Assembly: GCA_947373245.1 (NCBI GenBank)
Contig: CANBWY010000011.1
Location: 1 to 46,649 of the forward strand
Length of the DNA stretch: 46,649 nucleotides
Source: Comamonadaceae bacterium
GTDB lineage: Bacteria; Pseudomonadota; Gammaproteobacteria; Burkholderiales; Burkholderiaceae_C
Direction of reading: 5' to 3'
Shown: piece by piece, positions 30,311-45,427 of the stretch
Layout: each line of letters opens with the position of its first letter
Numbering within the stretch: position 1 is the stretch's first letter
Made by a program: the position numbers and the translations under genes
Notes under the pieces: model-generated
Seen by the model: only the letters and a program-made list of their open reading frames with translations
Databases searched by the model: none
What the model was told of the DNA's origin: nothing

Positions 30311-31303
30311 TTACTTAACTGTATAAATCTTGTCGAACTGGCCACCGTCATTAAAGTGGATTTTTTGCGCTTCGCTGAGTGAACCGAAATACTCGCTCAC
30401 AGGCACCAACTGAATGGGCTTGAAGGTAGATGCATATTTCTTCAGCAACGCGGGTGAGCGTGGGCGCAAGGCGTGCTTGGCCGCAATCTCTTGCGCTTCG
30501 TCTGAGTACAGATAGTTCAAATAAGCCTTGGCCAATTCGCCTGTGCCTTTTTTATTCACGGTGCGCTCCACCACAGCCACAGGGTTCTCAGCAATGATGC
30601 TGACCGATGGATGCACGGCATCGACCTTGCCTTCGCCAAACTCGCGGTCTACAGACACGACTTCTGATTCAAACGTCACCAGCACATCGCCGATGTTGCG
30701 TTGCAAGAAGATAGTGGTCGCATCACGGCCGCCTTTGGCGAGCACGGGCACGTTCTTGAAAATCTTGGCCACAAACTCAGCAGCTTGTGCATCGGTTTGG
30801 CCTTTCTTGCGGGCATAGGCCCAAGCGGCCAAATAAGCCATGCGGCCATTGCCGCCAGTTTTGGGGTTGACGATGATGACTTGCACGCCAGGCTTGGTCA
30901 GGTCGTCCCAATCCTTGATGCCCTTGGGGTTGCCATTGCGTGTGAGGAACAACATGGTCGAGGTGGTGGGCGATGCGTTGTTGGGAAACTTCTTCGCCCA
31001 GTCTTTGGCGACCACACCTGTACCAGCCAAGAACTCGATATCGGTGGTGGTGTTCATGCTGACCACGTCGGCATCCAAGCCGTCGTTCACCGCACGGGCT
31101 TGGGCGCTAGAGCCACCGTGGGCTTGGTCGACTTTGATGTCTTTGCCCGTGGTCTTTTTGTAATGGGCCACAAAGGCGGCGTTGTAGTCTTTGTAAAACT
31201 CGCGGGCCACGTCGTAAGACGCGTTCAGCAAAGTTTGTGCAGAAGCCAAAGAGCTGACTGCCAAGAGTGCAGCGGCCAAGGTGGTGTGTAGGAATTTATT
31301 CAT
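30311..31303 (-). CDS. cysP: Thiosulfate/sulfate-binding periplasmic protein, CysP-like
   Basis: A 330-residue secreted binding protein, with the signal peptide cleaved after ASA (residue 22). In the oxyanion pocket it follows CysP rather than Sbp: ASYDVAREF, HGGSSAQ, MNTTTDIEF, NPKTGGNGRMAYLAAWAYA, GGRDATTIF and TFESEV, where Sbp has a Trp in WENE. This suggests preference for thiosulfate or broader specificity; the assignment is from recalled E. coli sequences. It is coupled to the upstream hydrolase gene by an ATGA overlap and followed immediately by cysT. The protein works with CysTWA. Confidence 0.85.
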   Translation of the reverse strand: MNKFLHTTLAAALLAVSSLASAQTLLNASYDVAREFYKDYNAAFVAHYKKTTGKDIKVDQAHGGSSAQARAVNDGLDADVVSMNTTTDIEFLAGTGVVAKDWAKKFPNNASPTTSTMLFLTRNGNPKGIKDWDDLTKPGVQVIIVNPKTGGNGRMAYLAAWAYARKKGQTDAQAAEFVAKIFKNVPVLAKGGRDATTIFLQRNIGDVLVTFESEVVSVDREFGEGKVDAVHPSVSIIAENPVAVVERTVNKKGTGELAKAYLNYLYSDEAQEIAAKHALRPRSPALLKKYASTFKPIQLVPVSEYFGSLSEAQKIHFNDGGQFDKIYTVK

Positions 31304-31893
31304 ACCGTTTGAAGCTCCAAAGAATGAGAAGAAGTTGCAGGTGTCGAAGACTTAAACACCAAAGGTGTTTCAACCAAAGACTGCAACAGTGCCAGACCCA
31401 AGGGCCATGCACCAAAACCAGAATCGATGTTGATATGCCCTGCGTTTTGCAAGCGCACAAACTCGCTACCCCATGAGCGGGCATAAGCGCCTGCAGTGCG
31501 TACTGGGCAAAACGGATCGTTGCTGCTGGCCACCACCACGCTGCGATAAGGCAAGGCTTGGTAAGGCACAGGCGCAAAATCCACCAAGGGTGCACGGCGC
31601 TCAGGGTCAGCAGGTGCGACCAACAAAGCGCCATGCACACGTGCCGCCGCCTCAGGTGGCAAGTGTGTAGAAGCAATGCAACCTAGGCTGTGCGCCACCA
31701 GCACGACGGGTCCGTCTTGTGCAAGAACAGTTTCAGCAATACGGCCCACCCATGCACTGCGCGTGGGAGAAATCCAGTTGTCTTGTTGCACGCGCACAGC
31801 GCCCTCAATGGACTCGGCCCACAGGCTTTGCCAGTGACCGGGGTCGGAATTGCGCCAACCGGGCACGATGAGGATGGTGGGTGTTTGAGACAT
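31300..31893 (-). CDS. RBBP9/YdeN-type alpha/beta hydrolase
   Basis: A 197-residue serine hydrolase of the RBBP9 family. It shows LIVPGWRNSDPGHWQSLW at the N-terminus and the triad Ser69 in AHSLG, Asp126 in SSNDPFCP and His153 in NAGHINIDSGFG. No signal peptide, so cytosolic. Substrates in this family are largely unknown. It is inserted between the two sulfur-oxyanion binding proteins and coupled by a 4-base overlap to cysP, so it is expressed with sulfate uptake. Whether it acts on a sulfur compound is not shown. Confidence 0.88.
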   Translation of the reverse strand: MSQTPTILIVPGWRNSDPGHWQSLWAESIEGAVRVQQDNWISPTRSAWVGRIAETVLAQDGPVVLVAHSLGCIASTHLPPEAAARVHGALLVAPADPERRAPLVDFAPVPYQALPYRSVVVASSNDPFCPVRTAGAYARSWGSEFVRLQNAGHINIDSGFGAWPLGLALLQSLVETPLVFKSSTPATSSHSLELQTV

Positions 31894-31979
31894 GGCCGCG
31901 ATTGTGAAAGGGGGAGTCGAAATCTCAAACGACTCTTTTCTTGTTAGTTAATAACGGATGCGTATATAGAGATGCGGCA

Positions 31980-32993
31980 TCACTTCTTCAAGTAAATCTG
32001 ATCAAACTGCGCGCCGTCAGCAAAGTGCTCTTTACCCACTTTATCCCAGCTGCCAAATGCACTTTCAAGCGTGAAGAGGTTCAGCTTGGGCAACTGCTTC
32101 ACATACTTGGCTTGCGCTTTGGCAGAGATGGGGCGGTAGAAGTTTTTGCCTGCAATGTCTTGGCCTTCATCGGTGTAGAGGTAGTTCAGATATGCCTCAG
32201 CCACTTTGCGCGTGCCTTTACGCTCCACGTTTTTATCGACCACAGTGACAGGTGGCTCGGCCAAGATGCTGATGGATGGGTAGACGATATCTACCTTGTT
32301 GCCAAATTCTTTTTCTAGCAAATGCGCTTCGTTTTCCCAAGAGATGAAGACATCACCTTGGTTGCGTTGTGCAAACGTGACCGATGAGCCGCGAGCACCG
32401 GTGTCGAGCACAGGCACGTTCTCGTAGAGTTTTTTCACAAACTCTTTGGCTTTAGCCTCGCCACCGTATTTGCGTTTGGCAAATTCCCAGGCGGCCAAAT
32501 AGTTCCAACGTGCGCCACCTGATGTTTTGGGGTTGGGTGTAATCACGCTGATGCCGGGCTTGACCAAGTCATCCCAGTCTTTGATGCCCTTGGGGTTGCC
32601 CTGGCGCACCACCAACACGATGGTGGAGGTGTAAGGCGATGAGTTGTGTGGCAAACGCTTTTGCCAGTCTTGTGGAATGAGGCCACCGTTTTTGTATAAG
32701 GCATCAATGTCACCGGCCAAAGCCAAGGTGACCACGTCTGCATCAATGCCGTCAATGACCGAGCGAGCTTGCTTGCCAGAGCCACCGTGCGACTGCTTGA
32801 TGGTCACGTCTTGGCCAGTTTGTGCTTTCCAGTGTTTGGCGAAGGCGGCGTTGAACTCAGAATACAACTCGCGGGTTGGGTCGTACGACACGTTGAGCAA
32901 GGTGACAGGCGCGGGTTGCGCAGCAGCCAAGCCGCTCACAGCCAACAAGGCCGTGGCCACCAGAGTTTTGAGAAAGTGTTTGCGTTTAATCAT
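31980..32993 (-). CDS. sbp: Sulfate-binding periplasmic protein
   Basis: A 337-residue secreted protein, with the signal peptide ending near AAA (about residue 25). It carries the canonical sulfate pocket: [56 protein letters not shown] and SWENEA with the ligand Trp. It delivers sulfate to CysTWA. It is first in the operon. Its start codon lies 3 bases after a perfect 66-base folded leader that contains the ribosome site, suggesting post-transcriptional control. An 86-base gap with a small inverted repeat (GAGTCG/CGACTC) separates it from the hydrolase gene. Confidence 0.96.
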
Positions 32994-32996
32994 TGT

Positions 32997-33062
32997 GTTC
33001 CCTTTGAATCCATCTAAATTTGTGATGGATGGATTCTTGGCGCAGCAGCGCCAAAAGGGAAC
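32997..33062 (-). promoter_or_regulatory. Structured 5' leader of sbp: perfect three-way junction sequestering the ribosome site
   Basis: In mRNA sense the outer helix pairs GTTCCCTTT (33062-33054) with AAAGGGAAC (33005-32997), 9 of 9. It encloses one arm TGGCGC-TGCT-GCGCCA (33053-33038) and a second arm of 9 bp, GAATCCATC/GATGGATTC (33036-33028 with 33014-33006), with a 13-base loop. Only one base is unpaired at the junction. The 3' strand of the outer helix contains AAGGGA, the only ribosome site, ending 3 bases before the ATG. That all 24 pairs are Watson-Crick is strong evidence of selection. Candidate riboswitch, thermosensor or protein-binding leader; I do not recognise it as a known class. 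Confidence 0.7.
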
Positions 33063-33480
33063 GACAGAGTTTTTGATTGCTAATAACTAAAACATCTATG
33101 AGGTCATTTTCTGAGAGCGTTGGTTAAATATTTTTCAGCTGCGAAATTCATAATTCAAAGCAATTACACATTACATGTATTGAGCTCGCAAGCGCTTGAT
33201 TTAAATGCCCCTCAAGGGTGGATGAACCTAGGTTAATTAATTAAAAAAAGAATCGTTTGAGCAGTTCAATATGTTTATTTAGGCGGTAGGGACCCAAATT
33301 GAAAATGGGGGGTGGGGTACGGTGGAGTCAGCTCAGATCGAATTTTGAGGGGCTACCCCGTCCTTACATTCACCCCACAAGTTTTATACGTGTCCGCTTA
33401 AGTCTCCAGCAAGCCAACGGTGAACTTCACTTCGAAAACAAAAAAACGATGGAGGGTAAATTGGTGGGTAGAAATGAAAA
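33063..33480. other. Gene-free, AT-rich gap upstream of sbp and downstream of tRNA-Ser
   Basis: The sbp promoter must lie within about 33063-33130; TTAGTTATTA on the minus strand there is a possible LysR/CysB-type element. The part 33150-33290 is AT-rich with a palindromic TTAATTAATTAA. A plus-strand open frame starting at 33299 runs through the antisense of tRNA-Ser and is judged spurious. No gene is supported. Confidence 0.6.
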
Positions 33481-33498
33481 ACGCCCCGTGAGGGGCGT
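33481..33498 (-). terminator. Intrinsic terminator after tRNA-Ser
   Basis: A perfect 7-bp G+C-rich stem (ACGCCCC/GGGGCGT) with a four-base loop, followed on the minus strand by TTTTCATTTC. It ends the lysC-tRNA-Ser transcript 14 bases after the encoded CCA. Confidence 0.8.
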
Positions 33499-33512: not shown

Positions 33513-33605
33513 TGGCGGAAACGGAGGGATTCGAACCCTCGATGAGGCTCTACACCCCATACTCCCTTAGCAGGGGAGCACCTTCGGCCACTCGGTCACG
33601 TTTCC
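33513..33605 (-). tRNA. tRNA-Ser (anticodon GCU)
   Basis: On the minus strand the acceptor GGAAACG pairs with CGTTTCC, a G discriminator precedes an encoded CCA, and the anticodon stem CTCCC/GGGAG encloses CTGCTAA, giving anticodon GCT. A long variable arm and GGTTCGAATCC T-arm fit a class II serine tRNA of 93 bases. It is 24 bases after lysC on the same strand and probably cut from that transcript. Confidence 0.96.
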
Positions 33606-33629: not shown

Positions 33630-34898
33630 TTAAGCGCTTGGCTGATCCAAATCGAAAGCTTTGTGCAAAGCGCGCACAGCGAGCTCCATATATTTCTCAT
33701 CAATCACGACCGATGTTTTGATTTCGGAGGTGGAAATCATTTGGATGTTGATGCCTTCTTCGCTCAAAGAGCGGAACATCTTGCTCGCGACGCCCACATG
33801 GCTGCGCATGCCAATACCGACGATGGACACTTTGCAAATCTTGGTGTCACCTTGCACATCGGTGGCACCCAAGGCTGGCAACACTTTTTCTTTGAGCAAG
33901 TCGGTGGTGCGCGCATAGTCGTTGCGGTGCACGGTGAAGCTGAAGTCGGTTTTGCCATCTTTGCTGATGTTTTGGATGATCATGTCCACTTCAATGTTGG
34001 CATCCGCCACTGCACCCAAGATTTGGTACGCGATGCCTGGCTTGTCGGGTACGCCGACCACAGAAATTTTGGCCTCATCGCGGTTGAATGCGATGCCCGA
34101 TACGATTGCTTGTTCCATTTTTTCGTCTTCCTCAAAGGTGATCAACGTGCCTGATTTAGCTTCTTCGTTGATGTCAATATCCCAGGCGGTGAAGCTGGAC
34201 AACACGCGCAGCGGCACCTTGTATTTACCGGCAAATTCGACCGAGCGAATCTGTAAAACTTTGCTACCCAAAGATGCCATCTCTAGCATCTCTTCAAAGC
34301 TGAGTGTCTCCAAGCGACGCGCTTCGGGCACCACGCGTGGGTCGGTGGTGTAGACACCATCGACATCGGTGTAAATCAAACACTCTTTGGCTTTGAGCGC
34401 TGCCGCCACGGCCACGGCCGAGGTGTCAGAGCCGCCACGGCCCAAGGTGGTGATGTTGTCGTTCTCGTCTTTGCCTTGGAAACCGGTGATGATGACCACA
34501 CGGCCTGCATCCAAATCGGCGCGCACGCGCACATCATCGATCGACTCAATGCGTGCCTTGGTGTAGGCGTTGTTGGTGCGAATGGGCACTTGCCAGCCCG
34601 CGTAGCTGACCGAGGGCTGGCCTTCGGCTTGCAACGCGATGGCCAACAACGCAGAAGACGCTTGCTCGCCCGTAGAGGCCAGCATGTCGAGTTCGCGGTT
34701 GTAGGCCGAATCGGCTTTGGACGGTGCCAATTCTTTGGCAAGGCCGAGCAAGCGGTTGGTCTCGCCGCTCATCGCGGAGGGAACCACCACCATTTGGTGG
34801 CCGGCACGTGCCCATTTGGCCACGCGTTTGGCAACGTTACGGATGCGCTCTGTTGAGCCCATCGACGTGCCGCCGTATTTATGAACAATCAATGCCAT
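33630..34898 (-). CDS. lysC: Aspartate kinase
   Basis: A 422-residue enzyme phosphorylating aspartate, first step to lysine, threonine and methionine. The kinase domain opens with IVHKYGGTSMGSTERI and contains ITGFQGKDENDNITTLGRGGSDTSA in parts. Two C-terminal ACT domains (about 270-410; VVGVPDKPGIAYQILGAV and VSIVGIGMRSHVGVASKMF) mediate feedback by lysine/threonine, as in the heteromeric actinobacterial/betaproteobacterial class. It is 36 bases downstream of tilS and followed by tRNA-Ser. Single-domain kinase: no fused homoserine dehydrogenase. Confidence 0.97.
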   Translation of the reverse strand: MALIVHKYGGTSMGSTERIRNVAKRVAKWARAGHQMVVVPSAMSGETNRLLGLAKELAPSKADSAYNRELDMLASTGEQASSALLAIALQAEGQPSVSYAGWQVPIRTNNAYTKARIESIDDVRVRADLDAGRVVIITGFQGKDENDNITTLGRGGSDTSAVAVAAALKAKECLIYTDVDGVYTTDPRVVPEARRLETLSFEEMLEMASLGSKVLQIRSVEFAGKYKVPLRVLSSFTAWDIDINEEAKSGTLITFEEDEKMEQAIVSGIAFNRDEAKISVVGVPDKPGIAYQILGAVADANIEVDMIIQNISKDGKTDFSFTVHRNDYARTTDLLKEKVLPALGATDVQGDTKICKVSIVGIGMRSHVGVASKMFRSLSEEGINIQMISTSEIKTSVVIDEKYMELAVRALHKAFDLDQPSA

Positions 34899-45271: not shown

Positions 45272-45279
45272 ACTCTGGC

Positions 45280-45396
45280 TCGTGCGCAACTGGCGATAGG
45301 CGTACGGGGCTTACCCTGTACCGCTGACGTGGATGTATGACCACTGGGAAGCGCGCAGCCTCTTATCAAGAGGTTTTTAGCCGTTCGCCTGGGCAG
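45280..45396 (+). ncRNA. ZTP riboswitch (pfl motif) upstream of glyA
   Basis: Conserved parts of the pfl class are seen in order: AACTGGCG (45288-45295), a stem region ending in GACCACTGGGAAGC, then CCGTTCGCCTGGGCA (45381-45395). GGCG (45292-45295) can pair with CGCC (45386-45389) as the class-defining pseudoknot. Between the two halves is a linker hairpin CCTCTT-ATC-AAGAGG followed by five Ts (45359-45378). ZTP accumulates when 10-formyl-tetrahydrofolate is short, and glyA supplies one-carbon folate, so the link is physiologically sensible and known for this class. Confidence 0.85.
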
Positions 45397-45427
45397 CCAC
45401 AACTCCACCTTTTTACAGGACTGCCAG
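45389..45427 (+). promoter_or_regulatory. Expression platform: ribosome-site sequestering helix for glyA
   Basis: GGCAG (45392-45396), part of the riboswitch P3/pseudoknot domain, can instead pair with CTGCC (45421-45425), which directly follows the AGGA ribosome site (45417-45420). With one bulge the helix extends to CTGGGCAG/CTGCCAG. Ligand-stabilised P3 would prevent this helix and expose the site, i.e. translational switching on. Confidence 0.55.

Follow-up and report, generated by a model that had tools for sequence, protein, structure and literature searches.

The sbp locus and its upstream element

The window analyzed in this study is a stretch of 46,649 nucleotides (nt) from a Comamonadaceae bacterium (assembly GCA_947373245.1, contig CANBWY010000011.1). 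It carries sbp, a gene for the substrate-binding protein of a sulfate ABC transporter, and the 66-nt element that ends just upstream of this gene is the subject of the present report (Table 1). The gene name was given in an earlier note on this DNA, and it agrees with matches to two sulfate-binding protein models. After sbp come genes for a serine hydrolase, a second sulfate-binding protein (30311-31303, 52% identical to the first), CysT, and CysW. Upstream of the element are a tRNA-Ser gene and an aspartokinase-like gene, presumably lysC, both co-directional with sbp. Between tRNA-Ser and sbp there is a hairpin with a GC-rich stem and T-rich flanks, which is likely a terminator.

Table 1. Features of the sbp locus and of the element upstream of sbp, in window coordinates.
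Feature	Position	Strand	Evidence and remarks
sbp, sulfate ABC transporter substrate-binding protein	31980..32993	-	Open reading frame; NF008022 475.6 bits, TIGR00971 454.6 bits
Outer helix P1, 5' strand (GTTCCCTTT)	33054..33062	-	Inside -35 region
P2 arm with TGCT loop	33038..33053	-	Occupies most of the promoter spacer; helix poorly kept
P3 hairpin, 9 base pairs, 13-nt loop	33006..33036	-	5' strand overlaps -10; predicted +1 in loop
P1, 3' strand (AAAGGGAAC)	32997..33005	-	Includes Shine-Dalgarno sequence
Shine-Dalgarno sequence AAGGGA	32999..33004	-	Sequence; within 3' strand of outer helix
Putative -35 region TTCCCT	33056..33061	-	Poor consensus match; 17-nt spacer to -10
Putative -10 element AAGAAT	33033..33038	-	Homologs have an AGAAT-type block at an unvarying distance
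Upstream activator-type site plus -35 region	33053..33086	-	Conserved; weight matrix, 50.7 bits, one of two window matches
Predicted native 5' untranslated region, 33 nt, +1 at 33026	32994..33026	-	+1 is 6 nt after -10
Second module copy, ahead of serine hydrolase gene	31901..31954	-	34.8 bits; predicted +1 at or next to ATG
Terminator-like hairpin between tRNA-Ser and sbp	33481..33498		Program reports + strand only; T-rich minus-strand tail by eye
tRNA-Ser(GCT)	33513..33605	-	ARAGORN and Rfam; upstream, co-directional; possible read-through source
Aspartokinase-like gene	33630..34898	-	Pfam AA_kinase and ACT; co-directional, upstream of tRNA-Ser

Read on the minus (mRNA) strand from 33062 to 32997, the element consists of GTTCCCTTT, TGGCGC, TGCT, GCGCCA, A, GAATCCATC, a 13-nt loop, GATGGATTC, and AAAGGGAAC. 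It is followed by ACA and the ATG of sbp, whose A is at 32993. These segments fold into an outer helix of 9 base pairs (P1), a 6-pair arm with a tetraloop (P2), and a 9-pair arm with the 13-nt loop (P3), with 24 pairs (all Watson-Crick) and one unpaired base. Exactly this three-way geometry had been described in the earlier note for 66 bases ending 3 bases short of the sbp start, and both the pairs and the coordinates agree. The description of the fold as burying the sbp ribosome site also holds, because the Shine-Dalgarno (SD) sequence AAGGGA is paired in P1 and the fold, which RNA could adopt, is stronger than that of shuffled sequences. The free energy of the exact 66 nt on the mRNA strand is -32.6 kcal/mol (z -6.2, 0/200 shuffles), and with flanks it is -36.7 kcal/mol (z -6.7, 0/200 shuffles); the opposite strand of the element gives -34.9 kcal/mol (z -7.2). 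A chance fold was rejected on the basis of the shuffles of the 66 nt and of the permuted pairings described below (0/20000).

Known classes of element do not account for the fold. Rfam has no match at 32900-33200, even at E values up to 1, in keeping with the earlier note, in which no known class was recognized. An intrinsic terminator was dropped as an explanation because the stem is followed by ACAATG, without a U-run. A repeated element was also dropped, because the window's own genome (84% complete) has a single match.

Conservation of the pairing was tallied in 17 homologs (including the window) that were picked because they visibly carry the fold. Non-standard pairs occupied 3/153 cells of the outer helix (150/153 kept), 8/153 cells of P3 (145/153 kept), and 20/102 cells of P2 (82/102 kept). 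The earlier note had proposed compensatory changes in all three helices as a check. In P3 both sides changed once (C-G to U-A, shared by two similar sequences), the outer helix has no such change and is so nearly invariant that it yields no covariation, and P2 shows several pair types yet is often broken. The SD pairs with the 5' strand in 10 of the 26 representatives that start with GTTCCCTT. No such pairing occurs in the other 16, including the same-genus loci L122 and L167, which keep the GTTCCCTT start. Not every relative with this 5' strand thus has the fold, and it is the window and its nearest relatives that show the full three-way junction. Retention of the 5' strand with or without pairing is as expected of promoter DNA. 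Distant homologs do not keep the window's pairing, and many have other pairings in the same place. In two Hydrogenophaga upstream regions (L103 and L070), perfect 10-base-pair repeats of the -35 region lie near the SD, and their letters differ between the two (GTTCCTTATC with GATAAGGAAC; GTTCCTTGTT with AACAAGGAAC).

A promoter-like module in the 5' half of the fold

Upstream regions were collected from 124 loci: 80 on named genome contigs (the best of 577), two groups of 30 and 13 belonging to the same genus, and one that came from a first DNA search. That search covered 299 genomes and gave matches in 84 at E values up to 0.1; past the first seven, only short pieces were covered. There were 112 distinct regions, and 111 were long enough for module scoring. 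Scoring with a weight matrix located an upstream block, roughly TAATNAACAACTGAAAANTCAGTCGTTCC(A/C)(G/T)TTTT, in 107/111 Comamonadaceae sbp upstream regions. The distance from GTTCC to a second block, AGAAT, was exactly 25 nt in 92 of the 97 regions that passed both score limits; in the remaining five the best second-block match sits elsewhere. Second blocks that depart from AGAAT (judged by eye) read CATGAT, GATCAT, and similar at an unchanged position. The distance from the second block to the ATG ranges from 12 to 78 nt across homologs, and distant homologs keep the module.

The gap between TTCC(A/C)(G/T) and the second hexamer is fixed at 17 nt and its sequence is variable, so the module looks like a promoter. 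By this conserved spacing, the 5' strand of P1 in the window would be the -35 region, P2 would fill the spacer, and P3 would overlap the -10 with its 5' strand. The putative promoter in the 5' half of the fold is probably activator-dependent and sulfur-responsive. The conserved site upstream of the -35 resembles a CysB site, and CysB or a related LysR activator is a candidate factor; a search of open-licence papers with narrow wordings did not find a Comamonadaceae CysB site.

The weight matrix reports two sites in the window (46.6 kb) and another two within 400 kb of a related genome, and in both genomes the module copies precede sbp and the hydrolase gene that shares its locus. When up to 3 mismatches were allowed, a longer pattern gave one site per genome in eight genomes, each ahead of sbp. 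A shortened motif lacked selectivity (19 matches, against 106 for a reversed control). The copy ahead of the serine hydrolase gene suggests that its mRNA is probably leaderless. This geometry and the fixed spacing favor, against the negative sigma-70 consensus scan described below, a promoter placed so that its own transcript would lack the 5' strand. At 31893-31954, GTTTGAGA in the hydrolase -35 region can pair with TCTCAAAC, a complementary stretch in the first codons of the gene, and similar pairing is seen at L113, L118, and L132. At L032, L115, L116, and L119, a gene start similar to that of the second sbp lies behind its own module copy.

The predicted transcription start of sbp (33026) would lie in the loop of P3. 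A start at this position would leave the gene's own mRNA without the 5' strands and therefore open. Taken together with the first coding bases, the predicted native leader is essentially unstructured (-1.7 kcal/mol, z +0.8). A similar difference is seen across homologs: between GTTCC and ATG, folding is stronger than in shuffled sequences (mean z -2.4, with 51 of 106 homologs below -2), and the part downstream of the predicted start shows no excess folding (mean z +0.2, 104 homologs). The earlier note named a start downstream of the 5' strand as a result that would refute its reading, and the fixed-spacing module points to such a start.

Riboswitches contain a conserved aptamer, and RNA thermometers contain a marginally stable stem. 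Both use 5' RNA structure to hide the SD, as the sbp element may do, and they act within the gene's own mRNA. The earlier note had read the fold in this way, as part of the usual sbp mRNA, where it would respond to a metabolite, to temperature, or to a protein. The perfect fold and the buried SD would suit such a cis-acting riboswitch, protein-binding leader, or thermometer. The comparative data, however, point to a start inside the element, which would leave the native transcript with little predicted structure. The promoter-like module is common to homologs and the window's pairing mostly is not, P2 is often broken, and Rfam offers no match. Neither a conserved aptamer nor a marginally stable stem is seen. 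A riboswitch was rejected because the element has no Rfam match and the structure is absent from most homologs. A thermometer was rejected because the long form is very stable and the native form, given the predicted start, is almost unstructured. Pairing strength also tracks the orientation of the upstream gene (see below), which is unexpected for a ligand switch. We consider a sensing leader within the normal sbp mRNA improbable.

Ribosome site pairing and gene order

Complementarity between the promoter and the leader was measured with a permutation test in which the 36-nt promoter core was paired with its own 5' untranslated region (UTR) and compared with pairings to the UTRs of other species. 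The extended set began with 249 loci. Twenty dropped out (19 scored too low for the motif, one lacked a start), as did 24 duplicate or truncated loci, and 205 remained. Of these, 82 stem from 100 further stretches taken among the matches listed. UTR length was usable in 113/116 representatives. In 58 representatives, the sum for own pairs was -532.8 kcal/mol, compared to -310.9 +/- 19.0 kcal/mol for permuted pairs (z -11.7, 0/20000), and in the 113 representatives the z score was -13.0 (0/20000). In the 58-representative set, segments outside the core showed no such signal (z -0.5, +1.4, -0.5, and -1.6). In the 89-tip set described below, two other segments were slightly paired (z -2.6 and -3.6), and neither was linked to orientation (p 0.14 for one, 0.11 for the other). 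In the 58 representatives, the core pairs with the initial 30 coding bases as well (z -5.4), and between UTR and coding start there is avoidance (z +6.1).

The pairing centers on the SD. In silico, a long window transcript hides the SD and a short one leaves it open; the mean unpaired probability from -18 to +3 is 0.13 for the long transcript, 0.60 for the short one, and 0.42 with unrelated upstream DNA. Across genomes, the probability that position -8 is unpaired falls from 0.48 in the native form to 0.08 in the read-through form where the upstream gene is co-directional, and from 0.46 to 0.20 where it is divergent. Native SD accessibility does not differ by orientation (phylogenetic generalized least squares [PGLS], p 0.84). 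SD pairing of the long form exceeds 60% in 39/46 co-directional genomes. Of the SD pairing, 95% in co-directional and 80% in divergent genomes is with bases upstream of the predicted +1. In co-directional genomes, the SD pairs mainly with the spacer in 17 cases, with the -35 in 11, with the discriminator in 9, and with the -10 in 2. These data suggest that where the element lies and what it is complementary to define it, and that its sequence does not; an element of this kind would be expected to have many homologs without the window's particular fold.

Orientation of the upstream gene was compared on a tree of the sbp protein. From 123 loci, 118 were kept, 103 remained after clustering, and 89 had a called neighbor (neighbor and start calls were made by our own script). 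Mean excess pairing was -7.5 kcal/mol for co-directional (n=46) and -3.1 kcal/mol for divergent (n=43) genomes, and the PGLS slope on orientation was -5.8 +/- 0.9 (p 3e-9). The effect stays when UTR length and GC content are in the model (p 2e-9). By parsimony, orientation changed 20 times on the tree. The co-directional member was the stronger in 17 of 18 independent tip pairs (sign test, p 1.4e-4), with one of the 17 supporting pairs (L121) resting on a weak 51-amino-acid neighbor call. The energy difference was also significant among the 7 co-directional and 39 divergent representatives that are not in the tree (p 0.012).

Upstream neighbors differ in kind. At 14 co-directional loci they are of many kinds, and those tested were a metallo-beta-lactamase fold protein, SoxZ, and YggT. 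At divergent loci, 6 of 12 inspected look alike; a single one was tested, and it is a YggX-type protein of iron traffic. The stronger pairing below co-directional genes would also be expected if the hairpin served the upstream transcript, through 3'-end protection, as an RNase processing site, or as a terminator, with SD pairing a by-product. However, the stem lacks a following U-run, pairing peaks at the SD and is not spread across the UTR, and the families of the upstream gene differ. An upstream-transcript function is very unlikely to account for the element.

Two controls were made within genomes. In 400 kb of a related complete genome, 87 gene starts (including sbp) with at least 110 nt of intergenic DNA showed no orientation trend (p 0.70; start calls were rough). 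Means were -0.30 kcal/mol for 37 co-directional and -0.76 kcal/mol for 50 divergent starts. A general property of gene starts was dropped as an explanation on this basis. sbp ranked fifth among the 87 by energy and second by SD occlusion. The second control used the module copy further down the locus. Among 23 places taken from the 40 matches listed, 8 were set aside as leaderless, 2 for a UTR shorter than 20 nt, 1 as wrongly anchored, and 3 for want of a first-promoter value. In the nine genomes compared, the second copy paired more weakly than the first in eight (the exception is L202), a count given without a formal test.

Elsewhere in the window, 45276-45401 is a ZMP/ZTP riboswitch (RF01750, 49.6 bits, above the gathering score).

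Proposed silencing of read-through transcripts

The arrangement suggests that transcripts of different origin would differ in translation. The gene's own promoter would sit in the 5' half of the fold, and transcripts from it would begin in the P3 loop, lack both 5' strands, and leave the ribosome site open for translation. Transcripts entering from the upstream co-directional genes (tRNA-Ser and aspartokinase) would carry the whole element, fold, and hide the SD. With its own promoter off, sbp would then not be made despite read-through from its neighbors. We consider it likely that the element silences read-through in this way, its stem enclosing the promoter, and that such silencing has evolved recurrently in a cellular gene within this bacterial family.

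Several observations weigh against read-through silencing. SD pairing of the long form also exceeds 60% in 28/43 divergent genomes, and divergent genomes as a group show excess pairing (z -5.7). Individual loci depart from the trend in both directions, with weak pairing at co-directional L078, L130, and L051 and strong pairing at divergent L069, L049, L097, and L075. SD occlusion did not differ significantly in the representatives outside the tree (p 0.11). The terminator-like hairpin between tRNA-Ser and sbp means that some protection from read-through may already be present. A strict sigma-70 consensus scan of the window did not report the module, which may be expected if the promoter needs an activator. 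Co-directional loci with cysA upstream (n=4) pair less strongly than the 42 others (mean -4.0 and -7.8, raw p 0.026). Their difference from divergent loci in the tree model is nevertheless -4.9 +/- 2.5 (p 0.055), against expectation, so these loci do not confirm that co-regulated neighbors make the element unnecessary.

The antisense strand provides a further point of this kind. Its complementarity is as strong (z -16.5), and although the orientation slope was -5.9 for the sense and -4.5 for the antisense strand, the sense-minus-antisense comparison was not significant (p 0.06). Sequence alone therefore does not prove that the pairing acts in RNA rather than in DNA. Strand-symmetric complementarity, and inverted repeats that overlap the -10 and +1, would suit a DNA-level element, either an operator around the start for a dimeric regulator or a cruciform. 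On the other side, the repeats differ by lineage and use different promoter segments, unlike an operator; their strength follows the direction of the upstream gene; and the pairing centers on the SD. We regard a DNA-level element as unlikely.

Hiding of the SD in read-through RNA is known from mobile elements and phages. In IS10/IS50-type elements, read-through RNA hides the ribosome site and shields transposase genes from outside transcription. The sbp element would share this property; the insertion sequences differ in being mobile and in having no regulated metabolic promoter.

Leaders of phage T4 appear to be the closest in design. In T4, long early transcripts of gene e (lysozyme) hide the ribosome site, whereas those from late promoters are translated because the 5' portion is missing from them; a similar arrangement is described for I-TevI, which has a late promoter close to that portion (PMC3014915). 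The leaders of e, soc, 49, and I-TevI are the nearest counterparts, and the sbp element would share the anatomy of gene e. By this analogy, the proposed silencing arrangement would be known as a kind from phage T4. The T4 leaders serve early and late timing in a virus, whereas the sbp element belongs to a chromosomal nutrient-uptake gene, and, unlike in T4, its pairing segments vary by lineage and follow gene order. Narrowly worded searches of open-licence papers found no description of a recurrent, gene-order-dependent form in a cellular metabolic promoter, a scope too limited to establish that the form is undescribed.

For genome annotation, these results advise caution, because a perfect "leader" fold may be absent from the native mRNA. 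Elements of this type could be found by position and self-complementarity, as covariance models and Rfam would miss them. The 17 of 18 independent gene-order contrasts make read-through silencing directly testable.

Terminators are usually credited with insulating bacterial genes from their neighbors. At sbp, the promoter sequence seems to double as an antisense arm that closes the ribosome site of transcripts begun elsewhere. More broadly, and tentatively, it is possible that chromosomes use a sequence-free class of elements in which the core promoter is self-complementary to its own ribosome site, so that translation depends on where the transcript began. Such elements would be gained and lost as gene order changes, and they may keep regulated genes silent beside active neighbors.
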